Below are positions 15,805-63,942 of a stretch of DNA of 64,000 nucleotides, piece after piece. The notes below the pieces were generated by a model. That model made no database searches. It had not been told where the DNA came from and saw nothing but the letters and a program-made list of their open reading frames with translations. The translations under genes were made by a program, and so were the position numbers. How positions within the stretch are numbered: position 1 is the stretch's first letter; each line of letters begins with the position of its first letter. Where the stretch lies: positions 1,798,001 to 1,862,000 of the forward strand of contig NZ_CP076128.1 of assembly GCF_018736065.1 (NCBI RefSeq). Direction: 5' to 3'. This stretch comes from Flammeovirga kamogawensis (GTDB taxonomy: Bacteria > Bacteroidota > Bacteroidia > Cytophagales > Flammeovirgaceae).

Positions 15805-16230
15805 TTATTTTTTTTGACTTAATTTAAAAGTACCTTTTGCAACAATAAAGTATTTATTTAAAACTTCATTTAATTCTGCTATTTGGTACTCGCCAATAAT
15901 TTGATTGTTCACTACATCCCCTGTTACATAAGACATAAATGGATCGTTTTCGGATAAATTAATAAAAATTTGATTCTTCGCTTTAAAAGCATATCCAACC
16001 ATATTTGTATCCTTAAATGTTTTTTCTACTTTATAGTCATTCAATTCTCCTGATACTTGAATAGAATAGCCAACTATTAGATTACCTTTCAGGTCAATAT
16101 ATACTTTAGTATTTTTATCTGTATGTCCTTCATATTTTACTACACCTTCTGGTTCTGGGTGAGTAACATCTAGCGTACAGCTAGTTAGAAACATAAATAG
16201 GACTGATATAGAGAGTAATATATTTTTCAT
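15805..16230 (-). CDS. Small lipoprotein, unknown function
   Basis: 141 aa with a lipoprotein signal (MKNILLSISVLFMFLTSC, cysteine at 18). The mature part is predicted mainly beta (VKYEGHTDKNTKVYIDLKGNLIVGYSIQ, QIIGEYQIAEL). Its strand and turn pattern is similar in style to the neighbouring small envelope protein genes at 16369 and 17564. I recognise no family. Probably periplasmic or outer-membrane anchored. Confidence 0.6.
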   Translation of the reverse strand: MKNILLSISVLFMFLTSCTLDVTHPEPEGVVKYEGHTDKNTKVYIDLKGNLIVGYSIQVSGELNDYKVEKTFKDTNMVGYAFKAKNQIFINLSENDPFMSYVTGDVVNNQIIGEYQIAELNEVLNKYFIVAKGTFKLSQKK

Positions 16231-16311
16231 TCTGTGTTTATTTAATACAAAAACAAGACAGAGAAACAGCAGTAATGAACAATTATATAAACATTCCTTA
16301 ACGTTTAAACA

Positions 16312-50670: not shown

Positions 50671-50709
50671 ACTTTAGAAATCAGCATTTGTTAACAGACC
50701 AAAACAAAA

Positions 50710-50736
50710 CTGCCTATAAATAACAGGAACCTGTCT
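50710..50736 (+). promoter_or_regulatory. Bipartite promoter-like element, copy 1 (CTGCC-N17-TGTCT)
   Basis: CTGCC at 50710-50714 and TGTC at 50732-50735, 22 nt apart start to start, and 36 nt from the ATG at 50768. Confidence 0.55.
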
Positions 50737-50767
50737 TAGGATTGAATAAATCAAAAACTCAATTCTC

Positions 50768-51358
50768 ATGAAAAACTTATTAATTCTATTATTCTTATCG
50801 CTTTCTTTCTTCTCTTGCTCTGATAAAGAAGAACCACAACCTATTGTAAAAGAAGTTGTTAAAGCAAACAATACAAAAGATAATACTGTTGATATAGTAA
50901 AAAAAGAGAAAGCTACTGAAGATACATCAAAGACTAAAAAAGAAGAGTCTAAAAAAACACCAACATCTACTCAAACGTCTATATCAAACAAGAAAAAAGT
51001 TACTCATAGTTCTGGTAAATCGATCTTTATTGATCCTCTTTTAAAGATTTCAGCTAGTGAGCTTGATCGTTATTTTATTATTAAAAATAGTATTTCTAAG
51101 TTGATGAAAGAACATAGCGATTATAATTCTAAATGGAAATTAGCATTAAAAAAATCTAAAGATATCACAAAAGAAATAAGTGAATTAAAAGCTAAAAAAG
51201 CCTCTCAAAGTGAAATCGATGCTAAATATGAAGCGTTTAAAAAAGAAACAGTTAATATATTTAGAAATGCATCAAAAACTGGAAACTTAAGTAGAGCAAT
51301 AGATAAAGCACAAAAAGATTTAGATGGAATTATTATCACATATTCTATTACAGAATAA
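50768..51358 (+). CDS. Lysine-rich lipoprotein, tandem paralog 1
   Basis: 196 aa. Lipoprotein signal MKNLLILLFLSLSFFSC, then a lysine/threonine/glutamate-rich, probably disordered linker (to about 75), then SSGKSIFIDPLLKISASELDRYF and a helical coiled-coil-like C-terminus ending YSITE. It is nearly identical to paralog 2 through the linker and SSGK segment and diverges afterwards. No known family. A surface or periplasmic spacer-anchored protein is likely. Confidence 0.7.
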   Translation: MKNLLILLFLSLSFFSCSDKEEPQPIVKEVVKANNTKDNTVDIVKKEKATEDTSKTKKEESKKTPTSTQTSISNKKKVTHSSGKSIFIDPLLKISASELDRYFIIKNSISKLMKEHSDYNSKWKLALKKSKDITKEISELKAKKASQSEIDAKYEAFKKETVNIFRNASKTGNLSRAIDKAQKDLDGIIITYSITE

Positions 51359-51381
51359 GTAGATAGATTAGAATATACATT

Positions 51382-51418
51382 AAGCTACTTCATCAGTATA
51401 TGGTGGGGTAGCTTTTTT
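51382..51418 (+). terminator. Terminator of tandem lipoprotein gene 1
   Basis: Stem AAGCTAC/GTAGCTT (51382-51388 with 51408-51414), T run to 51418. Confidence 0.65.
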
Positions 51419-51481
51419 GTTTACTACTGATACACAAGTGGTAATCTTCAAACTTCCCTTTGTTAACACATCAAAATAGTA

Positions 51482-51508
51482 TTAGCAAACAACAGATTTT
51501 GTATGTCT
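51482..51508 (+). promoter_or_regulatory. Bipartite promoter-like element, copy 2 (TTAGC-N17-TGTCT)
   Basis: TTAGC at 51482-51486 and TGTC at 51504-51507; 22-nt spacing, 36 nt from the ATG at 51540. Confidence 0.5.
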
Positions 51509-51539
51509 TAAAGACGAATAAAACAAAAACTCAATTCTC

Positions 51540-52130
51540 ATGAAAAATTTATTAATTCTACTACTTGCCTCTTTTTCATTCTTTTCTTGCTCTGATAAGG
51601 AAGATCCACAACCTACTATTAAAGAGGTAGTTAAGAAAAACAATAAAAAAGATACTACTGTTGATCTAGCTAAAAAAGAGAAAGCTACTGGAGATACGTC
51701 AAAAACTAAAAAAGAAGAGTCTAAAAAAACACCAACATCTACTCAAACATCTATTTCAAATAAGAAAAAAGTTACTCATAGTTCTGGTAAATCAATTTTT
51801 ATTGATCCTCTTTTAAAGATTTCAGCTAGTGAGCTAGACCATTATTTTACGTTAAAAAATAGTATTGCTAAGTTGGTAAAAGAACACGACGGTTTTAATT
51901 CTAAATCAAAATTAGCAAAAGAAAACGCTAAAGTTATTAATAAAGAACTGATTGAATTAAGAGCAAAAAAAGCCCCAAAAATTGATATTGATGCTAAGGT
52001 TAAAGAGTATAAACAAGAGGTAAATAATATGATTAATTATGCTTCGAAAACAGGATATTTAAAAAGAAGAATATATAAAGCACAAAAAGATTTAGATGGA
52101 ATTATAACCACATATTCTATTACAGAATAA
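51540..52130 (+). CDS. Lysine-rich lipoprotein, tandem paralog 2
   Basis: 196 aa, same length as paralog 1. Signal MKNLLILLLASFSFFSC. The linker and the SSGKSIFIDPLLKISASELDHYF segment are almost the same as in paralog 1, including silent positions in the DNA. The last 90 residues differ more (KLAKENAKVINKELIELRAKK, YKQEVNNMINYASKTGYL) before a shared end LDGIITTYSITE. Recent duplication or gene conversion is likely. Function unknown. Confidence 0.7.
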   Translation: MKNLLILLLASFSFFSCSDKEDPQPTIKEVVKKNNKKDTTVDLAKKEKATGDTSKTKKEESKKTPTSTQTSISNKKKVTHSSGKSIFIDPLLKISASELDHYFTLKNSIAKLVKEHDGFNSKSKLAKENAKVINKELIELRAKKAPKIDIDAKVKEYKQEVNNMINYASKTGYLKRRIYKAQKDLDGIITTYSITE

Positions 52131-52153
52131 GTAGATAGATAAGAATATACATT

Positions 52154-52189
52154 AAGCTACTTCATCAATATATGGTGGGTAGCTTTTTT
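52154..52189 (+). terminator. Terminator of tandem lipoprotein gene 2
   Basis: Same AAGCTAC/GTAGCTT stem as copy 1 (52154-52160 with 52179-52185), T run to 52189. Confidence 0.65.
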
Positions 52190-52252
52190 GTTTACTACTG
52201 ATACACAAGTGGTAATCTTCACACTTCCCTTTGTTAACACATCAAAATAGTA

Positions 52253-52279
52253 TTGGCTAAGTGTAGAGATGATATGTCT
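52253..52279 (+). promoter_or_regulatory. Bipartite promoter-like element, copy 3 (TTGGC-N17-TGTCT)
   Basis: TTGGC at 52253-52257 and TGTC at 52275-52278; 22-nt spacing, 36 nt from the ATG at 52311. The sequence between the boxes differs from copy 2 although the flanks are near-identical. Confidence 0.5.
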
Positions 52280-52310
52280 TAAAGACGAATAAAACAAAAA
52301 CTCAATTCTC

Positions 52311-52931
52311 ATGAAAAATTTATTAATTCTACTTTTAGCTTCATTTTCTTTATTCTCTTGTTCAGATAAAAAAGACCCTGAACCTATTGTTAAAGAAGTT
52401 GTTAAAACAACAAAAAAAGATAATTCTACAGATAAAGTAGAAGTTAAAAAAGCATCTAAAAAAAATACATCATCAACATCTAAATCAAGTAAGGAAAAAG
52501 TTACAGTTCCTACTCCAGTAGCTACACCTGCTCCTGTTCCATCATCAAATACTTCTTCAAAAAAGAAGAAACATACATCTTCAGATGGTAAAGTACTATT
52601 TACAGAGTCTAGCTTTATAATTACTCAAAATGATATAGATAAGTATTTCAAAATCAAAAAAGAGTTGGAGAATTTGATAAATGAGCATAAGATTATATCG
52701 ACTGAATTCTTAGCTTCTTCAACTAAATCAAAAGCACTTAATCAAGAAGTAATAGAGCTTAAAAAGAATAATGCTCCAATAAGTGAGATCAATACAAAAA
52801 AAGCTGAAGTACTTAGTAATCATAAAAAGACTTTAAATATTGCAATAAAGAAGACAAATAAAGAAGCTGAAATTAGATCTAAGAGAATAGATTTAAGTGA
52901 GCTAGTGAAGATGTTTAACATCACAGAATAA
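52311..52931 (+). CDS. Lysine-rich lipoprotein, tandem paralog 3
   Basis: 206 aa. Lipoprotein signal MKNLLILLLASFSLFSC. The linker differs from paralogs 1 and 2 and contains a Pro/Val/Ala stretch (VTVPTPVATPAPVPSS). The core pattern is retained as SSDGKVLFTESSFIITQNDIDKYFKIK, with a helical end FNITE. It is the most diverged member, although its upstream segment is almost identical to that of paralog 2. Function unknown. Confidence 0.7.
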   Translation: MKNLLILLLASFSLFSCSDKKDPEPIVKEVVKTTKKDNSTDKVEVKKASKKNTSSTSKSSKEKVTVPTPVATPAPVPSSNTSSKKKKHTSSDGKVLFTESSFIITQNDIDKYFKIKKELENLINEHKIISTEFLASSTKSKALNQEVIELKKNNAPISEINTKKAEVLSNHKKTLNIAIKKTNKEAEIRSKRIDLSELVKMFNITE

Positions 52932-52963
52932 TAAACTACTCTTTAATTTTGAGTTATTTGAAT

Positions 52964-52999
52964 AAAGACTATTTCATATATATATGAAGTAGTCTTTTT
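52964..52999 (+). terminator. Terminator of tandem lipoprotein gene 3
   Basis: 14-bp stem with one G-U (52964-52977 with 52984-52997), T run to 52999. It differs in sequence from the two preceding terminators. Confidence 0.75.
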
Positions 53000-53105
53000 G
53001 TGTTTTAGAAGGTAGAATAAATAGAAATATGCATCGAATAAGAAAAACATTATTATAATTGAATAAAAATTCATTATTTGTCAACTCATTAAATAAATAG
53101 TGAAT

Positions 53106-54740
53106 ATGATACATCCTATGAATAGAAGAGGGTTTTCTCAGCCACATTATGATGCCATCATTATTGGAGGAGGAATTACCGGTGCTGCTATTGCTTATGA
53201 ACTAAGTTGTAAAGGTGCTATTGTTGCTTTGGTAGAAAAAGGTGACTTTGGTGGAGGTACTTCTGCCGCTACTTCTAAACTTATTCATGGAGGATTACGC
53301 TATTTAAAAAATTTAGAACTAGGTCTTGTTAGAGAATCTCTCAAAGAGCGTTTACGTTTATCTAATATTGCACCAAATTTTGTCCGCCCCATTCCATTTA
53401 TGCTTCCACTTTATTCTTATAAAGATAAGTGGCTCCTTAAAGCTGGAATGGAAATGTACGACTACCTTTCTTTTGACAAAAAAGACACACTTTTAAAAGA
53501 AAATGCCCTTGAGAATTATGACTATTACAGTGCTAAAAAAACATTAATTAGAGAGCAAGATATACGTAAAGAGGGGTTATTAGGAAGTTATATCTATCAC
53601 GATTGCCAAAATGCCAATGCAGAAAGACTTACATTAAGTTTTATAAAATCTGCAATGCAATACAATACAGAAGTCGCAAATTATGCAAAAGTTGAAGACT
53701 TTATTATTAAAGATGGAAGAGTTAAAGGTATTATAGGTCGTGATCTTATTAACGATACTCCCATTAAACTTTTAGCAAAAGTGGTTATTAACTGTGGAGG
53801 TGCTTGGGCAAACGATATTCTACAATTTAAAAATGCACCAAAAACAGACAAAGCGACTTTACGTTCAGAAGGTATTCATATTGTAACCAAAGCAATTGGT
53901 GGACAACATGCTATTGCTTTAGTTACCCCTAAAGGAAGGCATGTTATGGTACTCCCTTGGAGAGGACATTCTATAATTGGAACTACAGACAAACCATATA
54001 CTGGAGAAGTTGACGATTGGAAAGTAAGCAAAGAAAGTATAGAAGAATTAATAGAAGAAATAAATGCTTGTTACGGTGATGGTCAACTTTCTTATAAAGA
54101 TGTCTGTTATTATTATGGCGGTTTACGTCCATTGGTAGATCATCAAACAGAAAATACATACGATCAATCCCGCAAGCATGAAGTTATAAATCACACGGCA
54201 GACGGATACCCTGGATTGTATACTGTTGAAGGAGGAAAATACACCACTTCTAGGCACTTAGCTGAGATTGTAAGTGCTAAACTTTCATCAGAAATCACTT
54301 TAGAAAATGACCGTCAAAAAACAGCAAAAATTCCATTATTTGGGTGTAAAATCACCAATTTACACCAATATCATGAATATTTAAAACTTCAATTCCCTTA
54401 CCTATCTCAACACATGTTATGGACATTTATAGGTATGTATGGAGAGGAATCTGAAAGTATTTTAAAGCGCTTTGTAAATGAAGAGCATAATCCTACATTA
54501 CTAAATGCAGATGGGGAAATTATAACACAAGTATACCATGCTATTGAAAATGAAATGGCATTTACCTTAGAAGATATATTTTTAAGAAGAACAGGTTTAG
54601 GCACTTTAGGAAAACCTAATACTGTTTTAATTGATATGGTCTCAGTAATTTTACAAGAAAAATTAGGGTATTCTGATCTAGTAATCACGCAGCAAATAGA
54701 AAACCTACTTACACACTACCAACTTCTTGAGGAAGATTAA
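53106..54740 (+). CDS. glpD: FAD-dependent glycerol-3-phosphate dehydrogenase
   Basis: 544 aa from the ATG at 53106 (an ATG at 53118 is also possible; a GTG lies at 53100). The FAD loop is AIIIGGGITGAAIAYE. GGTSAATSKLIHGGLRYLKNLELGLVRE, VLPWRGHSIIGTTD and YYGGLRPLV are GlpD landmarks. It oxidises glycerol-3-phosphate to dihydroxyacetone phosphate at the inner membrane, feeding electrons to quinone. The AGPS-like gene follows by 11 nt. Confidence 0.92.
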   Translation: MIHPMNRRGFSQPHYDAIIIGGGITGAAIAYELSCKGAIVALVEKGDFGGGTSAATSKLIHGGLRYLKNLELGLVRESLKERLRLSNIAPNFVRPIPFMLPLYSYKDKWLLKAGMEMYDYLSFDKKDTLLKENALENYDYYSAKKTLIREQDIRKEGLLGSYIYHDCQNANAERLTLSFIKSAMQYNTEVANYAKVEDFIIKDGRVKGIIGRDLINDTPIKLLAKVVINCGGAWANDILQFKNAPKTDKATLRSEGIHIVTKAIGGQHAIALVTPKGRHVMVLPWRGHSIIGTTDKPYTGEVDDWKVSKESIEELIEEINACYGDGQLSYKDVCYYYGGLRPLVDHQTENTYDQSRKHEVINHTADGYPGLYTVEGGKYTTSRHLAEIVSAKLSSEITLENDRQKTAKIPLFGCKITNLHQYHEYLKLQFPYLSQHMLWTFIGMYGEESESILKRFVNEEHNPTLLNADGEIITQVYHAIENEMAFTLEDIFLRRTGLGTLGKPNTVLIDMVSVILQEKLGYSDLVITQQIENLLTHYQLLEED

Positions 54741-54751
54741 TATTTTTTGAA

Positions 54752-56389
54752 ATGAAATCAAAATTAAAAAACACATACAGACAAGTCTTGCGCTGGGGAA
54801 ACCCACACTACGAAGAAAAATTAAATGAGCAAGGCAAAAAAACTATTCAAGAGTTAGTAGGAATACCTATTACCGAGGTTAACCTTCCTACATTTCTACC
54901 TGGTGAAAAAGAAATTACACTAGAAAAACCTATTGGGCTACCACCTAAATATGTTTTAGAATTTACAGATATTGTTGGTGCAGAAAATATAAAAACATCT
55001 GATTTTGATAGGGTAAAACACTCTGCAGGAAAGTTTTATGGTGAATTAATGCAACTACGCCAAGAACAAGTACTTACACCTCCTGATTTAATTATCACTC
55101 CTATTGATGAAGCACAAATAGAGACAATTTTACAGCGTTGCCAACAATGGAAAATTCCTGTAGTGCCTCAAGGGTTACGCTCTTCTGTTACAAAAGGAGT
55201 TGGTTTGCCAGATGGCGGAATTGCCTTAGATCTAACTGCTCATTTAAATCAGATTATTAGTTTTGATGAAGTAAGTCAAACCGTTACAGCACAGTCTGGA
55301 ATTACAGGTCCATCGTTAGAAAAGTTTCTAAATAGTAAAGGATATACTTGTGGGCATTTCCCTCAATCTTTTGAATTTTCTACGCTTGGTGGTTGGGTAG
55401 CTGCTAAAGGTGCAGGCCAATGTTCTACTGGTTATGGTAAAATTGAAGATATGGTTTTGAGTCTAAAAGCATATACTCCATCTGGAATTATTCAGAATGA
55501 AACCTATCCAAAGTCTGCCCAAGGTTTTGATATTATGCCTTTATTTATTGGTTCTGAGGGTACACTTGGTGTAATTACTCAAGTAACAATGAAAGTGAGA
55601 AAACTTAATGTCAAAAACCGTAGAAATGCCTGTATTATCTTCAAGGATTTTGAAAATGCTGCTGCGGCAATGCGTGCATGTATTCAAGGCCAATTTGGGT
55701 TACCTCACCTTTTCAGAATTTCTGATCATGAAGAAACAGAAGTAGCTTTTAGAATGAAAGGTTTTGAAGGTTCTTTTTCTGATAAAGCACTAAAAGCTTT
55801 GGGGTATAAACCTAATAACAGGTCTTTAATGTTTATTTCTGTTGAAGGTGATAGTGATTATACTTCTTTTGTAGTTGATAAAATAAAAGTAACTGCTAAG
55901 AAATTTGGTGGTAGAAGTATTGGTAGTAAACCTACCAGAAAATGGTTAGACCAACGTTATCATTCTGCTTACATGAGAGAGCCTTTGATGGACTTAGGGC
56001 TAATGACTGATACCATAGAAACAGCTGCTATGTGGTATGATATTGAAAAACTTTGGAAAAATGTACGAACATATATAAAAGCAAGACCCAATACAGTTTG
56101 TATGTGCCATATCTCTCATGTATATGAAAATGGAGCAAACCTGTATTTCACTTTTATTACACCAACGGACAAATCGGCACCATCAGAAGATTATAAAACA
56201 TTCCATTCTGGATTAGTAGATACCATTTTAGCAAACAAAGGCTCACTTTCTCATCATCATGGAATTGGTAGAGCTCTTGCACCTTGGATGAAAGATAAAT
56301 TAGGCGAACGTTCTTTCGAATTAATGAAAAGTATTAAAAAAGATTTAGACCCTAATGGTGTGATGAATCCAGGTGCTTTATTCGATTAA
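54752..56389 (+). CDS. FAD-binding oxidase, alkyldihydroxyacetonephosphate synthase (AGPS)-like
   Basis: 545 aa of the VAO/PCMH flavoprotein family. The N-terminal RWGNPHYEEKLNEQGK and SAGKFYGELMQLRQ segments resemble AGPS. The FAD domain has PVVPQGLRSSVTKGVGLPDGGIALDL and TLGGWVAAKGAGQCSTGYGKIEDMV, and the C-terminal SLSHHHGIGRALAPWM contains the triple histidine of AGPS. AGPS makes the ether bond of ether lipids in eukaryotes; bacterial relatives are largely untested. Placement between glpD and an FGGY kinase ties it to glycerol/DHAP chemistry (inference). Confidence 0.85.
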   Translation: MKSKLKNTYRQVLRWGNPHYEEKLNEQGKKTIQELVGIPITEVNLPTFLPGEKEITLEKPIGLPPKYVLEFTDIVGAENIKTSDFDRVKHSAGKFYGELMQLRQEQVLTPPDLIITPIDEAQIETILQRCQQWKIPVVPQGLRSSVTKGVGLPDGGIALDLTAHLNQIISFDEVSQTVTAQSGITGPSLEKFLNSKGYTCGHFPQSFEFSTLGGWVAAKGAGQCSTGYGKIEDMVLSLKAYTPSGIIQNETYPKSAQGFDIMPLFIGSEGTLGVITQVTMKVRKLNVKNRRNACIIFKDFENAAAAMRACIQGQFGLPHLFRISDHEETEVAFRMKGFEGSFSDKALKALGYKPNNRSLMFISVEGDSDYTSFVVDKIKVTAKKFGGRSIGSKPTRKWLDQRYHSAYMREPLMDLGLMTDTIETAAMWYDIEKLWKNVRTYIKARPNTVCMCHISHVYENGANLYFTFITPTDKSAPSEDYKTFHSGLVDTILANKGSLSHHHGIGRALAPWMKDKLGERSFELMKSIKKDLDPNGVMNPGALFD

Positions 56390-56400
56390 ATTTTCAGTCC

Positions 56401-57945
56401 ATGATTTTATCTATTGATGCGGGAACGCAATCCATCCGAGCTTCGATTATTGATAAAAAAGGAAATATTTGTGCCTTAGTTAAGACACCTATTACTCCTT
56501 ATTTTTCTCATAAAGCAGGATGGGCAGAACAAAATCCTGCTTACTATTGGGACGTATTCTGTACAACTACACAACAACTTTTTAACGAAAATACTTCTTT
56601 AAAAGAGCAATTACTAGGGATAACCGTTACCACACAGAGAGGAACGGTTATTAATGTAGACAAAGAAGGCAACCCCTTGCGCCCTGCAATTTTATGGCTC
56701 GACCAAAGGAAAGCAAAGGTAGAAGCTTTCCCCAATTGGTGGTTAAGAACTGCCATGAAAGGTATTGGCATTTACAGTATTGTAGAACATGCAATAACAG
56801 AATCTGAAGCCAATTGGATCCGCCAAAACGAAGCAGATATTTGGAATAAAACGCATAAATTTTTATTCTTATCTGGCTACTTTCATTATCAACTAACTAA
56901 CCGCTTTATTGAAACAAAAGGTAATATGGTGGGTTACGTACCTTTTGATCATAAAACGGGAGATTGGGCTTCAAAAAGGGATGTTAAAAGTAAAATGTTT
57001 CCTATAGCACTCAATAAATTACCAGAATTGATTGATGTAGGAGAAGTAATTGGGAATATAACTGAAAAAGCTGCAAAAGAAACAGGCATACCTGTACAGT
57101 TACCCGTAATTTCTACAGCTTCAGATAAAGCGTGTGAATTGTTAGGTACGGGAACTTATACATCTAATGTAGGGTGCTTGAGTTTTGGGACAACAGCAAC
57201 TTTCTCTACTAATATCAAAAAATATAAAGAGATTATCCCCTATTTCCCTCCATATACCAGTGCTATAAAAGGGTGTTTTAATACTGAAATAATGGTTTAT
57301 AGAGGCTATTGGATGGTTAGCTGGTTTAAAAAAGAATTTGGAAGTAGAGAGGTTTTACAAGCTGAAGAACTTGGTATTGCAGCTGAATCAATTTTTGATG
57401 AAATGATCAAGGATATTCCTGCCGGTGCAATGGGACTAACACTTCAACCTTTTTGGTCGCCAGGAATTAAATCACCAGGAAAAGAAGCAAAAGGAAGTAT
57501 TATTGGTTTTGGTGATGTACATACCAAAGCTCATATTTATAAAGCAATTTTAGAAGGTATTGGATATGCTTTAAGAAATGGAGCTGAGCAGACTCAAGAA
57601 AAAACAGGAAATAAAATTACTGAATTAAGAATTTCTGGAGGAGGTTCTCAAAGTGATGAAGCCATGCAGCTTACTGCTAATATTTTTAACCTACCAACAC
57701 ACCGTCCGCATACCTTCGAAACTTCTGCTTTAGGGGCTGCTATGTTAGGGTTTATAGGACTGGGTTTACATACTTATGAAAGTGCCATAAAAGAAATGAC
57801 ACATATAAAAAAGACGTTCTACCCTAATAAAAAAGAAGTAGCAATTTATGATCAATTGTACAAAGATGTCTACCTACAAATGTACCCTCGTTTAAAACCT
57901 ATCTACGAAAAAATTCAAAAAATTACAGGCTATCCTAAAATCTAG
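56401..57945 (+). CDS. FGGY-family carbohydrate kinase
   Basis: 514 aa. The N-terminal phosphate loop is SIDAGTQSIRASIID; RPAILWLDQRK, TASDKACELLGTG and SFGTTATFSTN follow; the C-terminal FGGY-type motif region is ELRISGGGSQSDEAMQLTANIFNLP. The first loop differs from classical glycerol kinase (DQGTTSSR), so the substrate may be glycerol, a pentulose or another polyol. It is the third gene of an operon with 11-nt gaps. Confidence 0.88.
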   Translation: MILSIDAGTQSIRASIIDKKGNICALVKTPITPYFSHKAGWAEQNPAYYWDVFCTTTQQLFNENTSLKEQLLGITVTTQRGTVINVDKEGNPLRPAILWLDQRKAKVEAFPNWWLRTAMKGIGIYSIVEHAITESEANWIRQNEADIWNKTHKFLFLSGYFHYQLTNRFIETKGNMVGYVPFDHKTGDWASKRDVKSKMFPIALNKLPELIDVGEVIGNITEKAAKETGIPVQLPVISTASDKACELLGTGTYTSNVGCLSFGTTATFSTNIKKYKEIIPYFPPYTSAIKGCFNTEIMVYRGYWMVSWFKKEFGSREVLQAEELGIAAESIFDEMIKDIPAGAMGLTLQPFWSPGIKSPGKEAKGSIIGFGDVHTKAHIYKAILEGIGYALRNGAEQTQEKTGNKITELRISGGGSQSDEAMQLTANIFNLPTHRPHTFETSALGAAMLGFIGLGLHTYESAIKEMTHIKKTFYPNKKEVAIYDQLYKDVYLQMYPRLKPIYEKIQKITGYPKI

Positions 57946-57980
57946 TTCTAATATACGTTGCTCTTTTATATCTTCGCCTT

Positions 57981-58892
57981 ATGAGTATCAAAGTAGAGAA
58001 TTTGACAAAAGTGTACGGTGAACAAAAAGCCGTTAATAATATCAGTTTTGAAGCAAAGCCAGGAGAGATTTTAGGTTTTCTAGGACCAAACGGTGCAGGA
58101 AAATCTACAACAATGAAAATTGCTACCTGTTATGTTCCTCCTACAGAAGGAACAATTAAAATTTGCGACTATGATGTTGTCGAAAACCCTATCGAGGTAC
58201 GTAAAATGGTAGGGTATTTACCAGAACACAATCCTCTTTATTTAGATATGTATGTCAGAGAATATTTAGAATATTCAGCTGCTATATACAATATAAAAGG
58301 GCAGAAAAGAAAGCAACGTGTAGACGAGATGATTGAGCTTACTGGTCTTACTCGTGAACGCAAAAAGAAAATTGGAGCTTTATCAAAAGGGTATAGACAG
58401 CGTGTTGGCCTTGCTCAAGCTTTAATACACGATCCTGAAGTGCTTATTCTAGATGAACCTACTACAGGTCTCGATCCCATTCAATTAGAAGATATTCGTG
58501 CTTTAATAAAAAAAGTAAGTCAGAATAAAACTGTTATGCTTTCTACGCACATAATGCAAGAAGTACAAATACTTTGCGACCGTGTTGTTATTATTAGAAA
58601 AGGTGATTTAGTTGCCGACGATAAAGTAGAAAACTTACGTCATTATGGAGCAAAAACAGCACTAAACCTTAAATTTGAATCGCCTACTTCTGCTGCTTTT
58701 TTATCAAGTATTGAAGGTGTAGAAAAAATTGAAATTATAGACCCTGCCAACGTTCTTGTTTACTATGCCAACGATTTAGATTTAAGAGGTGATATTTTCA
58801 GAAAATCAGCAACTGAAAATCAAGCCATTATAGAAATGAATATGCAGATTCAATCTATGGAAGAAATCTTTACACAGTTAGCTCAAGGTTAA
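57981..58892 (+). CDS. gldA: Gliding-motility ABC transporter ATP-binding subunit GldA
   Basis: 303 aa. Walker A GPNGAGKST (35-43), signature LSKGYRQRVGLA, Walker B LILDEPTTGLDP and switch HIMQE are intact. MSIKVENLTKVYGEQKAVNNISF and GYLPEHNPLYLDMYVREYLEY match GldA closely. It should power an ABC exporter with GldF/GldG, which are not in this window. A TATCTTCG box at 57969-57976 may be its promoter. Confidence 0.88.
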   Translation: MSIKVENLTKVYGEQKAVNNISFEAKPGEILGFLGPNGAGKSTTMKIATCYVPPTEGTIKICDYDVVENPIEVRKMVGYLPEHNPLYLDMYVREYLEYSAAIYNIKGQKRKQRVDEMIELTGLTRERKKKIGALSKGYRQRVGLAQALIHDPEVLILDEPTTGLDPIQLEDIRALIKKVSQNKTVMLSTHIMQEVQILCDRVVIIRKGDLVADDKVENLRHYGAKTALNLKFESPTSAAFLSSIEGVEKIEIIDPANVLVYYANDLDLRGDIFRKSATENQAIIEMNMQIQSMEEIFTQLAQG

Positions 58893-59018
58893 TAAAACAC
58901 ACTCTCTACTTGATAACATAATTTAAAAAATGAGTGTCAATGTTAGCGAATAACAATAAATGAATTTGTCTTCATTTTAGCCACTACCGTTTCATAAATC
59001 AAACATTAACACTGATTT

Positions 59019-59945
59019 ATGAAAAAGCTACAATACTTATTTCTATTTCTAAGTCTAATTTTATTATCTGTAATTTCCAATACTATTCATGCTAAAATTA
59101 GTAATGATATAGTTATTCCTGTTGGAGATTCTCAACTCCTACCTTCTTTAGATGTTAGTGGGAGAACTCATTATATTATCCAAGGTACTTTAACTATTAA
59201 TGGAGATGTTAACGTAACAGGTAACGGACAAATTACTGTTGATGGCGGTGAGTTAATTATTTATGGCAACCTAAAAGCTGCCGGAAATGGAGTTGTACTT
59301 GTAGATGGCGGTGATCTATATGTTGATCGTATAATTAAGCCTGGTAATGGAGAAGTTACAACAATTAACGGAGGTGAAATACACCATACTTCAGATCTTC
59401 CTGTAGAATTAATTAGTTATAATATTGAAGTTGATAAAAATAAAAATGTAGATATTTATTGGGAAACCGCTCAAGAAATAAATAATAGTCATTTTATTAT
59501 TGAAAAATCTTATGATAGAAAAAATTATGTTTTTGTTGATTCTGTTGGCGGACACGGAAATACGAACAGTAATGTTTATTATGAAAGTAGTGACCGATTA
59601 GAGAACAATAAAACAACCTATTATAGACTTACACAATTTGATTTTGATGGTAAATCTGAAGCTTGGATACAAAGTGTTGCAGGTACTAATAACGATATTA
59701 GCTTTAATATCTATCCTAATCCAACATCTGAATATTTAAGAGTTCAAACTACTATAAATGATAAAGAACTAATGGAGTTTTACCTTGTAAATGCTAGTAA
59801 CGGTAGTAGACATAAACTAAATAATACTTCTATTTCTTATGCAACACAAACCTTTGATCTTACTCATTTAGCAAATGGTATATACATCATAGAAATTACA
59901 AAAGGAAATCAAGTGATTTATCAAGATAAAATCATTAAAATATAA
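59019..59945 (+). CDS. Small secreted solenoid-like protein with T9SS type A sorting domain
   Basis: 308 aa. Signal peptide ends at ...NTIHA. Four to five short strand repeats follow (about 35-120: IIQGTLTINGDVNVTGNGQITVDGGELIIYGNLKAAGNG...), suggesting a parallel beta-solenoid. From LPVELISYNIEV a linker and T9SS domain follow (YPNPTSEYLRVQT, LANGIYIIEITKGNQ). It is a more distant member of the 60-63 kb set, and its upstream region lacks the bipartite element. Confidence 0.85.
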   Translation: MKKLQYLFLFLSLILLSVISNTIHAKISNDIVIPVGDSQLLPSLDVSGRTHYIIQGTLTINGDVNVTGNGQITVDGGELIIYGNLKAAGNGVVLVDGGDLYVDRIIKPGNGEVTTINGGEIHHTSDLPVELISYNIEVDKNKNVDIYWETAQEINNSHFIIEKSYDRKNYVFVDSVGGHGNTNSNVYYESSDRLENNKTTYYRLTQFDFDGKSEAWIQSVAGTNNDISFNIYPNPTSEYLRVQTTINDKELMEFYLVNASNGSRHKLNNTSISYATQTFDLTHLANGIYIIEITKGNQVIYQDKIIKI

Positions 59946-59972
59946 GTACTTCGATTCATTAAAATTTAAGAG

Positions 59973-60002
59973 CACCTTTCTTTTTGGAAGGTGTTTTTTT
60001 AT
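59973..60002 (+). terminator. Terminator of the 59.0-kb T9SS gene
   Basis: 8-bp stem with one G-U (59973-59980 with 59986-59993) followed by a T run. Confidence 0.75.
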
Positions 60003-60057
60003 TGTCACTCAAAAAGTGTGAATAAAAGGAAATAGAATTCAACAGATCTTAATACTT

Positions 60058-60084
60058 CTGCCTGTTCAATTAGGTTACCTGTCT
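60058..60084 (+). promoter_or_regulatory. Bipartite promoter-like element, copy 4 (CTGCC-N17-TGTCT)
   Basis: CTGCC at 60058-60062 and TGTC at 60080-60083; 22-nt spacing, 35 nt from the ATG at 60115. A 20-bp stretch just upstream (60034-60053) recurs exactly at 61561-61580. Confidence 0.55.
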
Positions 60085-60114
60085 ATAAAAGACAAGAACT
60101 AAATTTCTGTTTCT

Positions 60115-61548
60115 ATGAAAAATTTACACCTATCAAATAGTCGCTTTAAAATATTCACTTTAATTAGTCTAGTCTCATTTTTAATGATAAATGTGGATGG
60201 GTTTTCTGAAGATGTAAATTTCAGTTTTGCTAATACCAAATATTCAAAGAATGTAAAATTTCATTATATACAGAAACACTATAAACTTGATGAATACCAA
60301 GATTTTGTTAGATATACATTTCCTCAAAAAATAGGCGAATTCTTAATTGAAACAAAAGAAGAAACACAACAAGATTATACTTTTATTATAGGTAAAGTAA
60401 AAATCTTAAGTGGAAAAAGTTTAACTATTAAAAAAGGACATACTTTAGTTATATATGGTAAATTAACAGCTCTTCCAGGTTCTACATTAATTAATGAGGG
60501 CAATTTAGTTATAAGAGGTTCTTTATTTATTGGTGATCAAGTTACAGCAGGTCAAGAGTCATATATTGTAAATTTCCAAAATAAGCCAAATGCAAACTTA
60601 TATATCACTCAAGGGCTAGTAGGTCAGCATGTTCATGGTTCTACAATAGCAGGAAATATTGCTGTAATACAAAATGTAATGTACCATTTCCATTTAAATG
60701 AAAATACTATCAATCCAAAAGGTGGAGTATTTTATTATAGAAATAATGATTTTAGTGCTAAAGCTAATGAAGGAACGGAAGTTATAATGAAACTGGATAG
60801 TAAGAATAGAGCTAGCAAAAAATATAGTAGAGGGGAAAAAAAAATAGATAAAGAAGATAAAGAAAAAGATAGAAATCATAATAAAATTACAAATCTACCT
60901 TACAAAGAATACTTTAAGAAAATCTGTAATAAAAATCCTATAAAAAAAGAAAGTTTACTAAAACTTCAACCCTACCTAACAAAACAATTTAAAGACCTCC
61001 CAGTAGAACTCTCAAGCTTCTCTTGTACTCAAGAAGAATCTTTTACAGCTATCAAATGGGCTACTGCTCAAGAAATTAATAACAGTCACTTTACAATTGA
61101 AAAGTCTTATGATAAAAAGAATTTTGAAAAAATTGATGAAGTTGAAGGGCAAGGTAATTCGAATACAGTAAAGCAATACAAAATTAATGTTCCCATAGAT
61201 AATAAAAATAGAACCGTTTATTACAGGTTAACACAATTTGATTTTGATGGAAAATCAGAATCGTGGATTCAAGCCGTAATGAGCAATGAAGATACTAAAG
61301 TAGATGTGAGTGTTTACCCTAATCCTACTACGGACTTTCTTAAAGTAGAAACAAATTCTACTGATGATACTCCAATGGATTACTATTTAATTAACACAAG
61401 TACAGGTGCTAAAACGAAATTAACGAGTAGTTCATCTCAATATACTTCTCAAAAATTTGATGTATCTGGCTTATCTCAAGGGATATATATATTGGAAATC
61501 ATTCAAGGCAATAAGCGTATTTATCAGAATAAAGTGATTAAGAAGTAA
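60115..61548 (+). CDS. Secreted solenoid-like surface protein with T9SS type A sorting domain
   Basis: 477 aa. A signal peptide (to about 31) is followed by a unique N-terminus, then a strand-repeat region (about 100-200: LTIKKGHTLVIYGKLTALPGSTLINEGNLVIRGSLFIGD, LYITQGLVGQHVHGSTIAGNIAVIQNV) and a charged Lys/Asp/Glu spacer (KKIDKEDKEKDRNHNK). From LPVELSSFSCTQEES the linker and T9SS domain (VYPNPTTDFLKVET, LSQGIYILEI) are almost the same as in the next gene. It should be exported by the T9SS and tethered outside the cell. Confidence 0.85.
   Translation: MKNLHLSNSRFKIFTLISLVSFLMINVDGFSEDVNFSFANTKYSKNVKFHYIQKHYKLDEYQDFVRYTFPQKIGEFLIETKEETQQDYTFIIGKVKILSGKSLTIKKGHTLVIYGKLTALPGSTLINEGNLVIRGSLFIGDQVTAGQESYIVNFQNKPNANLYITQGLVGQHVHGSTIAGNIAVIQNVMYHFHLNENTINPKGGVFYYRNNDFSAKANEGTEVIMKLDSKNRASKKYSRGEKKIDKEDKEKDRNHNKITNLPYKEYFKKICNKNPIKKESLLKLQPYLTKQFKDLPVELSSFSCTQEESFTAIKWATAQEINNSHFTIEKSYDKKNFEKIDEVEGQGNSNTVKQYKINVPIDNKNRTVYYRLTQFDFDGKSESWIQAVMSNEDTKVDVSVYPNPTTDFLKVETNSTDDTPMDYYLINTSTGAKTKLTSSSSQYTSQKFDVSGLSQGIYILEIIQGNKRIYQNKVIKK
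60994..61480 (+). repeat. Near-identical T9SS C-terminal domain block, copy 1
   Basis: 487 bp nearly identical to 62437-62920, differing by a few substitutions and one codon. The preceding coding parts of the two genes are far more diverged. Confidence 0.85.
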
Positions 61549-61584
61549 ATAAAACACAACAGAATTCAACAGATCTTAATGCTG

Positions 61585-61611
61585 CTGTCTACAGAATTTG
61601 GCTAGCTGTCT
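61585..61611 (+). promoter_or_regulatory. Bipartite promoter-like element, copy 5 (CTGTC-N17-TGTCT)
   Basis: CTGTC at 61585-61589 and TGTC at 61607-61610; 22-nt spacing, 35 nt from the ATG at 61642. Confidence 0.55.
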
Positions 61612-61641
61612 ACAAGATATAATAACTAAAAATCTGATTCT

Positions 61642-62988
61642 ATGAAAAGTTTTTCACATAATTATAATAGCTTCAAAATAGTCACTTTAATTAGTTTTTT
61701 AATGCTAATTACCTTAGGTAATGATAGTATAGCTCAAAAAGGTACCATTAAAAAAACATTAAATAGACAAACACTTCCAACGGATACTTTTCGTTTTAAG
61801 TATGTATATAAAAATATAACTGAATATCAAGTTTTTGATCGATACAAACCAAATAATGACAAAGGTTTTCTTGTAAAAGGAACATTTAAAGCTGGTGAAG
61901 GTTTAAAAGATGGAAAACCATTTAATAGGAAAAAATACACAGGTATTTATAGTAATGTAACTATCAAATCAGGTAGCACATTACATATTCCAGTTGGACA
62001 AACTTTATTAATACAAGGAAATGTGTATTTAAAAACTGAAGGAACTCTAAAAAATGAAGGACGTTTAGTTATTATAGAAGGAAACCTTTTTATAGGTAAT
62101 TATAGCGAAAATTCAATATTAGGACATCAAGATCATACAAACTTTATAAATACAGGAGATTTATATGTACAAGGTAACTTAATTGGTCAACATCCCCATG
62201 GTTGTACTTTTAAAGGAAATATAGCAATTGAAGAAAATGTTGCTTTCCATTTTCATAAACACAAATCTCCATCAGAAGCTAATTTTTATTTTAATGAAGT
62301 AAAAGATAAATTTGAAAAAGTTAAAATTCACGATCCTCAAAAACATGTAATGTCAGCTCAATTAAGTAAAGGAAAAAAACATGCAGGGTTAGGCCAAAAT
62401 ATACCTCTACAAAAATTAAAACCTTACCTTGGTTTGGACCTCCCAGTAGAACTCTCAAGCTTCTCTTGTACTCAAGAAGAGTCTTTTACAGCTATCAAAT
62501 GGACCACTGCTCAAGAAATTAATAACAGTCACTTTACTATTGAGAAATCTTATGATAAAAAGAATTTTGAAAAAATTGATGAAGTTGAAGGGCAAGGTAA
62601 TTCGAATACAGTAAAGCAATACAAAATTGATGTTCCCACAGATAAAAACAGAACCGTTTATTACAGGTTAACACAATTTGATTTTGATGGAAAATCAGAA
62701 TCGTGGATTCAAGCCGTAATGAGCGATGAAGATACTAAAGTAGATGTGAGTGTTTACCCTAATCCTACTACGGACTTTCTTAAAGTAGAAACAAACTCTA
62801 TTGATGATACTCCAATGGATTACTATTTAATTAACACAAGTACAGGTGTTAAAACGAAATTAACGAGTAGTTCATCTCAATATTCATCTCAAAAATTTGA
62901 TGTATCTGGCTTATCTCAAGGAGTGTATGTATTAGAAGTTCTACAAGGAAATAAGCGCATTTATCAGAAAAAAATTATAAAGAATTAG
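61642..62988 (+). CDS. Secreted solenoid-like surface protein with T9SS type A sorting domain (paralog)
   Basis: 448 aa. Signal peptide ends at ...NDSIAQ. The solenoid-like part reads VTIKSGSTLHIPVGQTLLIQGNVYLKTEGTLKNEGRLVIIEGNLFIG, then LYVQGNLIGQHPHGCTFKGNIAIEENVAFHFH, paralleling the preceding gene. A short Lys/His spacer leads to LPVELSSFSCTQEES and the T9SS domain. Sequence identity with the preceding gene is high only in the C-terminal domain. Confidence 0.85.
   Translation: MKSFSHNYNSFKIVTLISFLMLITLGNDSIAQKGTIKKTLNRQTLPTDTFRFKYVYKNITEYQVFDRYKPNNDKGFLVKGTFKAGEGLKDGKPFNRKKYTGIYSNVTIKSGSTLHIPVGQTLLIQGNVYLKTEGTLKNEGRLVIIEGNLFIGNYSENSILGHQDHTNFINTGDLYVQGNLIGQHPHGCTFKGNIAIEENVAFHFHKHKSPSEANFYFNEVKDKFEKVKIHDPQKHVMSAQLSKGKKHAGLGQNIPLQKLKPYLGLDLPVELSSFSCTQEESFTAIKWTTAQEINNSHFTIEKSYDKKNFEKIDEVEGQGNSNTVKQYKIDVPTDKNRTVYYRLTQFDFDGKSESWIQAVMSDEDTKVDVSVYPNPTTDFLKVETNSIDDTPMDYYLINTSTGVKTKLTSSSSQYSSQKFDVSGLSQGVYVLEVLQGNKRIYQKKIIKN
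62437..62920 (+). repeat. Near-identical T9SS C-terminal domain block, copy 2
   Basis: 484 bp partner of the 60994-61480 block; both start at the codons for the DLPVEL/LPVEL linker. Confidence 0.85.
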
Positions 62989-63028
62989 ATTTATACTATA
63001 GATAATATAGAACAGACAATTAGTTAGT

Positions 63029-63062
63029 AAGCGCCTCATTTTTAATGGGGTGCTTATTTTTT
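63029..63062 (+). terminator. Terminator of the 61.6-kb T9SS gene
   Basis: 12-bp stem with two G-U pairs (63029-63040 with 63044-63055), then a T-rich tail. Confidence 0.65.
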
Positions 63063-63087
63063 CATCCATTAATAAATCTAAATAAAA

Positions 63088-63114
63088 CTGACATTCAATG
63101 AGCTATAGCTGTCA
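63088..63114 (+). promoter_or_regulatory. Bipartite promoter-like element, copy 6 (CTGAC-N17-TGTCA)
   Basis: CTGAC at 63088-63092 and TGTC at 63110-63113; 22-nt spacing, 35 nt from the ATG at 63145. Confidence 0.5.
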
Positions 63115-63144
63115 TAAAACCAAATAAATCTAATTACTATTTCT

Positions 63145-63942
63145 ATGTTAAACACCTCAACCTCTCTAGACATTTACTGTAATTTAAAAACTGCTTTCAA
63201 GGTAATGGCAACAGTCGTAATGTTCTCGTTAGCTTTTACAACTAAGGCACAAAATGTTCACGAACATATAAAAGTATATGGTAAAGCTCATAGCAAAAAA
63301 ATATACACTGTTAAGCACAATTTAGAAACTTCTAATGGAGAAGAGTATAAAAAAGGCATTGGACATGTGGTGTATATAAATGGAAAAGTTAGAGTACCTG
63401 CCAATAAAAAAATTGTTATTCAGGCTACAGATACATTAGTAGTTTATGGTAACCTAACATTGTTCGAAAATAGTGCTTTAATTAACTATGGAAATTTAGT
63501 TATTAAAGGGAATCTTATTTTGGGAACTCCTGAACATAACGTTGAAGCTATACAGTTTTTAAATGATAAAAACGCAAATTTAATTGTAGAAGGTAACCTA
63601 ATTGGGCCCCACCCAGAAGATGTTCATTTAAATGGTAAGATTGCTGTATGTGGTAATGTAGACTTTAATTTTCATTTATATGGAATCCACAAAAATGAAA
63701 TGAGAAATAATAAGGTGTTTTACTACCAATCAAACATAAATGGATTGGCTGAAGGTGGAAATAAAGATTTAAAAATTAGTAAGTTGAAACACCATAAAAA
63801 CGAAGGAACTCATTTTATAGAAATTGATAAAAAAGTAGATATCACAGAACGTAATTTAAGTAACCTATTCTATTACTTATCAGAAGAAACATACTCTCGA
63901 GTAATGCCGCTTATTCTTTCAAAAATCTCATCATTGAAATAA
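63145..63942 (+). CDS. Secreted solenoid-like protein lacking the T9SS domain
   Basis: 265 aa. Signal region ...KVMATVVMFSLAFTTKAQ. It shares the core of its two neighbours (KIVIQATDTLVVYGNLTLFENSALINYGNLVIKGNLILG, LIVEGNLIGPHPEDVHLNGKIAVCGNVDFNFH), but ends at SSLK without the LPVEL linker or sorting domain. It should therefore be periplasmic or secreted without T9SS anchoring. A lipoprotein gene begins 7 nt downstream and may encode a partner. Confidence 0.8.
   Translation: MLNTSTSLDIYCNLKTAFKVMATVVMFSLAFTTKAQNVHEHIKVYGKAHSKKIYTVKHNLETSNGEEYKKGIGHVVYINGKVRVPANKKIVIQATDTLVVYGNLTLFENSALINYGNLVIKGNLILGTPEHNVEAIQFLNDKNANLIVEGNLIGPHPEDVHLNGKIAVCGNVDFNFHLYGIHKNEMRNNKVFYYQSNINGLAEGGNKDLKISKLKHHKNEGTHFIEIDKKVDITERNLSNLFYYLSEETYSRVMPLILSKISSLK

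Follow-up and report, generated by a model that had tools for sequence, protein, structure and literature searches.

A candidate extracytoplasmic function (ECF) sigma factor promoter upstream of lipoprotein and other exported-protein genes in Flammeovirga kamogawensis

In Flammeovirga kamogawensis, several genes for lipoproteins and for proteins with type IX secretion system (T9SS) sorting domains share a short element just ahead of their start codons. The stretch that we analysed ("the window") comprises 64,000 nucleotides (nt) of contig NZ_CP076128.1 (positions 1,798,001 to 1,862,000 of the forward strand), and window coordinates are counted from its first letter. A sequence-only reading of this DNA had described six plus-strand copies of a two-box pattern, [CT]TNNC-N17-TGTC, with TGTC at 50732, 51504, 52275, 60080, 61607 and 63110. 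Every copy was confirmed, including the 17-nt spacer (6/6) and the distance from TGTC to the ATG, which is 36, 36, 36, 35, 35 and 35 nt in coordinate order. When paralogs of both gene families were compared with orthologs from the nearest relative (genome G004; the own genome is G000, 6.97 Mb in four contigs), a third box, TTAAYA-like, was found 19 nt 5' of the first of the two boxes. The two boxes originally described are real, but that description had missed both the third box and a seventh site on the minus strand, which we located through its ortholog in G004 (L261), where it is kept. Its TGTC (16260-16257) lies 30 nt ahead of the ATG at 16230. With the boxes labeled A, B, and C from 5' to 3', the predicted promoters are as follows.

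50691..50768, plus strand: predicted promoter of lipoprotein gene 50768-51358; A 50691-50699, B (-35) 50710-50714, C (-10) 50732-50735, predicted start 50744, ATG 50768
51463..51540, plus strand: predicted promoter of lipoprotein gene 51540-52130; A 51463-51471, B 51482-51486, C 51504-51507, predicted start 51516
52234..52311, plus strand: predicted promoter of lipoprotein gene 52311-52931; A 52234-52242, B 52253-52257, C 52275-52278, predicted start 52287
60039..60115, plus strand: predicted promoter of T9SS sorting-domain gene 60115-61548; A 60039-60047, B 60058-60062, C 60080-60083, expected start 60092
61566..61642, plus strand: predicted promoter of T9SS sorting-domain gene 61642-62988; A 61566-61574, B 61585-61589, C 61607-61610, predicted start 61619
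63069..63145, plus strand: predicted promoter of gene 63145-63942; A 63069-63077, B 63088-63092, C 63110-63113, predicted start 63122
16230..16301, minus strand: seventh site, lipoprotein gene 16230-15805; A-like box 16301-16293 (TTAAGGAAT), B (TTGTT) 16282-16278, C 16260-16257, predicted start 16248

The full element consists of box A (TTAAYAGAT, with a second AA 10 nt on), box B (nTGnC), 17 nt, box C (TGTC), and a pyrimidine-purine (YR) step. Box B is often TTGGC, CTGnC, or TTGTC, with its fourth base free while box C is fixed and mostly followed by T. In several sites B and C are alike, as in CTGTC..CTGTC at 61585/61607 and at C2:1156887. Of 23 aligned sites, 22 have the YR step 11 to 12 nt past the T of TGTC, compared to a cluster-weighted fraction of 0.00 to 0.56 at neighboring offsets, and the site at 60080 is the sole one without a pyrimidine ahead of its expected start at 60092. 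The same step is present in all nine aligned sites that were found by our first sequence profile (R1), whose columns stop at +7, and in 41 of the 42 sites of 21 hand-picked G000/G004 ortholog pairs, many of which belonged to later profile training. We read this step as the predicted transcription start, which makes B a -35 box and C a -10 box. Relative to that start, C would occupy -12 to -9, B about -34 to -30, and A about -53 to -45, with the second AA near -41.

Promoters recognized by ECF sigma factors have two short boxes at a near-fixed spacing of about 16 to 17 nt, with a -10 box of the CGTC/TGTC kind about 12 nt ahead of the start; a -35 box with an AAC core is typical, but not universal. 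In our sites, the spacing is near fixed (N17 in the window and at the sigma factor loci described below) and TGTC lies about 12 nt from the predicted start. The AAC core is absent from the -35 box, box B being nTGnC, and our claim is therefore limited to an element that, judging from its sequence, works like an ECF promoter. The earlier suggestion of an ECF-like -35/-10 layout is supported by the YR step, by ortholog footprints, and by the arrangement between a sigma factor gene and its anti-sigma partner. Equally sound was the suggestion that the element is unlike the housekeeping promoter, given that TAnnTTTG is found within 120 nt upstream of none of the seven window site genes. The same box occurs at that distance in 10 of the 29 other window genes with free upstream DNA and in 9.4% of random stretches.

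The boxes are better conserved than their surroundings. Over the 21 G000/G004 pairs for which both partners were in hand (sites lacking a partner, such as 51504, are excluded), the mismatch was 0.00 in TGTC, 0.05 in the B core, 0.11 in box A, and 0.05 in the second AA, versus 0.32 in the 17-nt spacer and 0.38 upstream. For 19 of these pairs (leaving aside those of FecR and of a 26-amino-acid peptide), the conservation of the B and C core was matched by random 7-column sets in 2 of 20000 draws, and that of the A core by random 6-column sets in 99 of 20000.

What ties the element most strongly to one particular sigma factor is the conserved layout next to an ECF gene elsewhere in the genome. The own genome has 21 matches to Sigma70_r2, some of which are not ECF factors. 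One, at C1:3804985-3805611, is an ECF gene of the Sig70_bacteroi1 type that is directly followed by a FecR/FecR_C gene (PF04773, PF16344); Pfam was applied to the FecR of the own genome, and the other FecRs have N-termini similar to it. In named records, orthologs of the sigma factor at 78-85% identity all belong to Flammeovirga. Between the two genes, TTGTC-N17-TGTC is present in 9/9 Flammeovirga genomes. More broadly, TTG[AT][CT]-N17-TGTC lies behind the ECF gene in all 16 ortholog loci of the family with readable downstream DNA. At one of these loci box B is TTGTT, and no following gene was found there. Spacers in these loci are on average 40% identical, a mononucleotide shuffle predicts 0.1 of 16 loci with the layout, and the sole other spacer lengths seen between 8 and 30 were N18 (3 loci) and N27 (1 locus). 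Two further ortholog loci stand outside the 16, one without FecR downstream and the other incomplete. When we scanned ECF genes more widely, keeping 80 of 494 loci, the layout was present in 6 of the 7 nearest loci (one is gapless), with gap sequences that repeat those already counted, and in 2 of 73 other relatives, both times in long gaps. A comparison with autoregulatory promoters of ECF genes had been proposed, and it was borne out in part: such a site lies behind the sigma factor gene, before FecR, but not upstream of the sigma factor gene itself. In the 14 kb around the pair we recognized neither a TonB receptor nor a SusC/D gene, and the next gene looks by eye like mnmE.

Within the window, the copies are not fully independent. 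They belong to two gene families, as had been argued, but upstream of box B the sequence of copy 1 is similar to that of copies 2-3 (GTTAACA..CAAAA), and 20 bases there are identical between the copies at 60080 and 61607. Nor does the 63.1-kb copy stand apart from the T9SS copies: the product of gene 63145-63942 shares their N-terminal family, such that all T9SS-like copies form one protein family, and a sorting domain was not found in this product. Closely 3' of this gene lies a metalloproteinase-like lipoprotein gene (L064:1450-2436; TIGR03952 at 59.5 bits, cut-off 208.1); the two, the second perhaps encoding a zinc metalloproteinase, may form one operon. A position weight matrix (PWM) of the three boxes and start region, trained on sites that include the six window sites, exceeded a score of 14 in the window only at those six (36.7 to 42.0), and the seventh site scores under this cut-off.

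Profile searches, in which the 150 best first-look candidates per genome were scored, extended the set of sites beyond the window. Profile R1, derived from the sequences of 14 three-box sites and run on nine Flammeovirga genomes, found new sites outside its training set in G000 and G004 with E values down to 6.8e-7, while the best value in the seven other genomes was 0.036. The second profile (R2) gave 0.029 as its best value in those seven, and the third (R3), which was run on G000, G004, G003, and G008, gave 0.041 and 0.050 in G003 and G008. Seventeen R1 matches were fetched, of which nine were kept by eye for lying before a gene or being conserved in both genomes and eight were left out; one of these eight, the strong match at C1:4528651 (R1 E 0.0095), is antisense inside a gene and was taken as chance. 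Among 20 R2 matches fetched for R3, 7 were kept, the others being in genes, having no gene close, or consisting of B and C without box A. The R2 matches at 22 loci in other genomes were mostly within genes, and some preceded exported or other proteins. At three loci (L142, L143, and L148 in G007, G005, and G006), TTGGC-N17-TGTC lies about 72 nt before a protein that by eye is hemolysin III-like. A sigma-54 promoter reading was dropped after inspection by eye of a few sites.

Our results support a regulon made up mainly of lipoproteins, as opposed to T9SS cargo in general. Specifically, 16 sites of the own genome reached E<=1e-3 with R3, all of which sit in its training set. They precede 10 lipoproteins (judged by eye), 3 members of the window T9SS-like family, 1 other exported protein, and 1 peptide of 33 amino acids, and in 1 case there is no open reading frame (ORF). 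Lipoproteins are over-represented among these targets: 10/16, compared to 10/109 background genes when a simple lipobox rule is applied, the 10 including the seventh-site gene. We also classified 35 of the weaker R3 matches (E 0.002-0.6) in G000 and G004, some of them orthologs of training sites (L259, L260, L267, L274). Eight precede lipoproteins by rule, four other exported proteins, and three other proteins, and 20 have no start within 60 nt; a ninth lipoprotein, L267, was scored as exported. Among 14 of the 56 control matches in G003 and G008, with E up to 3, there were 0 lipoproteins, 3 exported proteins, 1 other protein, and 10 with none of these. Furthermore, sites found by R1 precede additional lipoproteins (L100, L106, and, weaker, the unrelated pair L108/L109), and the site at L104 lies 220 nt from a large exported protein that appears leucine-rich-repeat-like by eye. 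The proposal of a surface-protein regulon therefore stands with respect to lipoproteins, including unrelated ones, but not for T9SS cargo as such, since a sorting-domain gene at 59019, within the same cluster as the T9SS-like copies, has no element. Export signals of this kind consist of a lipobox followed by charged residues, and we infer that the lipoprotein products are surface exposed. Taken together, a scattered set of lipoprotein genes is probably switched on by one alternative sigma factor.

Some sites precede short ORFs or none at all. The three-box promoter at L101 (G000:C3:365628, minus) and L112 (G004:C1:4079124, minus) lies before a conserved 33-amino-acid ORF (MKKLIQLTYLIAHYFL..), beyond which there is more conserved DNA and a terminator-like hairpin. 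At L102 (G000:C2:1156885-1156932, minus) and L105 (G004:C2:347387, plus), it precedes a conserved stretch of about 150 nt that has a terminator-like hairpin but no ORF and is a probable small RNA. At four loci whose sites precede a short ORF or none, the L102/L105 stretch included, Rfam returned no family match. Additional loci carry parts of the element. A B-C element without box A lies before a short hydrophobic peptide ORF at L172 (G000:C1:3084336, plus) and L110 (G004:C1:4804332, minus); the ORF has 26 amino acids in L110 (MMTFLKYFGLAV..), and L172 is similar as far as read. In two further pairs, L227 (G000:C1:279990, minus) with L232 (G001:C10:214358, plus) and L228 (G000:C1:2648778, minus) with L181 (G004:C1:16578, plus), TTTTGTC-N17-TGTC has a T-tract in place of box A and is followed in each pair by similar intergenic sequence with no clear gene. 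Such loci may represent core targets of that sigma factor, or RNAs under its control. Beside the lipoprotein target at L100, 1022 to 2009 nt downstream of TGTC, a minus-strand ORF resembles by eye an AraC-type regulator; its product is a candidate activator at box A.

From the layout, its conservation, and its gene neighbors, we infer promoter function, a start site, the identity of the sigma factor, and an activator at box A. The explanation that we favor, and hold to be probable, is that the elements are ECF-type promoters, most likely for the sigma factor encoded at C1:3804985-3805611, with a clade-specific upstream activator box. This sigma factor would read B as the -35 and C as the -10 box, with transcription beginning at the purine 12 nt past the T of TGTC, leaving leaders of 23 to 24 nt on the six genes. 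The sigma factor would be restrained by the FecR-type anti-sigma factor of the neighboring gene, whose expression it would itself drive from the similarly arranged promoter in the gap. At many promoters of the own species and its closest relative, box A (TTAAYAGAT..AA, about -53 to -40) would be a probable activator site. The output would be mainly lipoproteins, along with a few T9SS or other exported proteins, the 33-amino-acid peptide, and at least one probable small RNA.

Several observations weigh against this explanation. The genome-wide enrichment of the bare pattern that had been anticipated was not found: CTGNC-N16-CTGTC had 11 matches in the own genome versus 12 for the reversed control, and TTGTC-N17-TGTC had 52 versus 125, although the control is rough because reversal alters the composition of the pattern. 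With 16 matches to [CT]TNNC-N17-TGTC in the window (9 plus, 7 minus) and 11 versus 12 genome-wide, the two boxes alone are not beyond chance. Among nine TTGTC-N17-TGTC sites inspected (eight picked by eye plus L181), four were within genes and five were intergenic, each of the five with a T-rich stretch just 5' of TTGTC. Because the bare pattern is common and not enriched, the case for the element had to rest on other evidence, and the element needs the third box and the start region to stand out. In addition, the boxes served to find the sites, and so their conservation is partly ascertainment. The sigma factor gene is present in all 18 family genomes searched and the A-box regulon was seen in two, an absence elsewhere that is not complete since only the best candidates of each genome were scored. 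Finally, a PWM site of score 9 or more is missing ahead of all 21 Sigma70_r2 genes. The PWM derived from the lipoprotein promoters gives low scores to four of the nine FecR sites in Flammeovirga (6.4 to 7.7 versus 20.8 to 31.1 for training sites), and box B of the lipoprotein promoters is looser than the TTG[AT]C behind the sigma factor gene.

The looser box B and low-scoring FecR sites allow for another ECF factor of similar taste, or for several with overlapping taste, reading these promoters. Overlapping ECF regulons are discussed for the SM6 promoters of Flavobacterium psychrophilum (PMC9723704). We regard this alternative as unlikely, given that nTGnC-N17-TGTC in sense orientation is absent from the other 20 Sigma70_r2 loci and that the layout occurs in 0 of 12 paralogous loci, the latter being a weak control in which 8 gaps span only 41 to 54 nt and 2 loci have no gene behind the sigma factor gene. 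Boxes B and C might instead be direct repeats (TGnC, 21 bp apart, two helical turns) for a dimeric transcription factor acting over an ordinary promoter. The likeness of B and C in several sites and the 21-bp period fit this idea, but the YR step at promoter distance from C, the missing housekeeping box, and the freedom of the fourth base of B while C is fixed make it improbable. A functionless layout inherited with duplicated genes would account for six copies in two families and for the upstream sequence shared by neighboring copies, yet orthologs retain the boxes although their spacers have diverged, and the boxes also precede unrelated lipoproteins, the 33-amino-acid peptide, and the stretch without an ORF; the chances of this reading are very slim. 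Similarly, the constant spacing that the six window genes keep between element and ATG could suggest a signal in the 5' leader RNA that acts post-transcriptionally. This spacing varies elsewhere, however (about 10 to 44 nt where an ATG is nearby, 84 nt in one pair, and 80 to 204 nt at most FecR genes), one pair of sites precedes no ORF, and the predicted start falls downstream of the boxes, leaving this possibility close to negligible.

If the elements are ECF-type promoters of this sigma factor, a broader evolutionary scenario can be tentatively entertained, although we would sooner doubt than assert it. A sigma factor found across the family may have gained a second input in one Flammeovirga lineage, where an upstream box in fixed phase (about -53 to -40) would have gathered unrelated lipoprotein genes, peptides, and small RNAs into a surface-coat regulon that is switched jointly by FecR and a putative activator. 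For Flammeovirga, our analysis names specific candidates for the sigma factor, the anti-sigma factor, the promoter sequence, and the targets. It also suggests that a lipoprotein regulon in the Bacteroidota can run from a FecI/FecR-like pair without an adjacent TonB partner. With start sites predicted to the base, this reading is directly testable.

Among the papers listed by our literature search, judged by title, none gives an account of a Flammeovirga lipoprotein regulon with this promoter. The SM6 promoters of F. psychrophilum have a CGT -10 box and target T9SS machinery genes along with a sigma/anti-sigma pair (PMC9723704). They resemble our elements in having an ECF-type -10 box (TGTC here), a sigma/anti-sigma pair among the targets, and targets linked to the cell surface. 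They differ in that SM6 targets include the T9SS machinery, whereas ours are mainly lipoproteins and a few exported proteins, and in that our promoters have a third, upstream box. In the PorXY-SigP system of Porphyromonas gingivalis, an ECF sigma factor is likewise tied to the secretion of surface proteins; the Flammeovirga factor, however, is of the Sig70_bacteroi1 type and paired with FecR, and both the reported SigP motif, C(T)AAA(G/C/T)A(T)A(C)T(A/G)A, and its T9SS component targets (PMC4800418) are different. In contrast to the sigma-A box of Bacteroidetes, TAnnTTTG at -12 to -5 (PMC9723704), which is missing before all seven window site genes, box C has another sequence, even though it would begin at the same -12. 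A parallel in gene order exists with systems of the FecI/FecR type, which likewise have an ECF sigma factor gene and a FecR gene with FecR_C side by side; the Flammeovirga pair departs from them in its lack of a recognizable TonB or SusC/D gene in the surrounding 14 kb and in the conserved promoter that lies in the gap between sigma factor and FecR.

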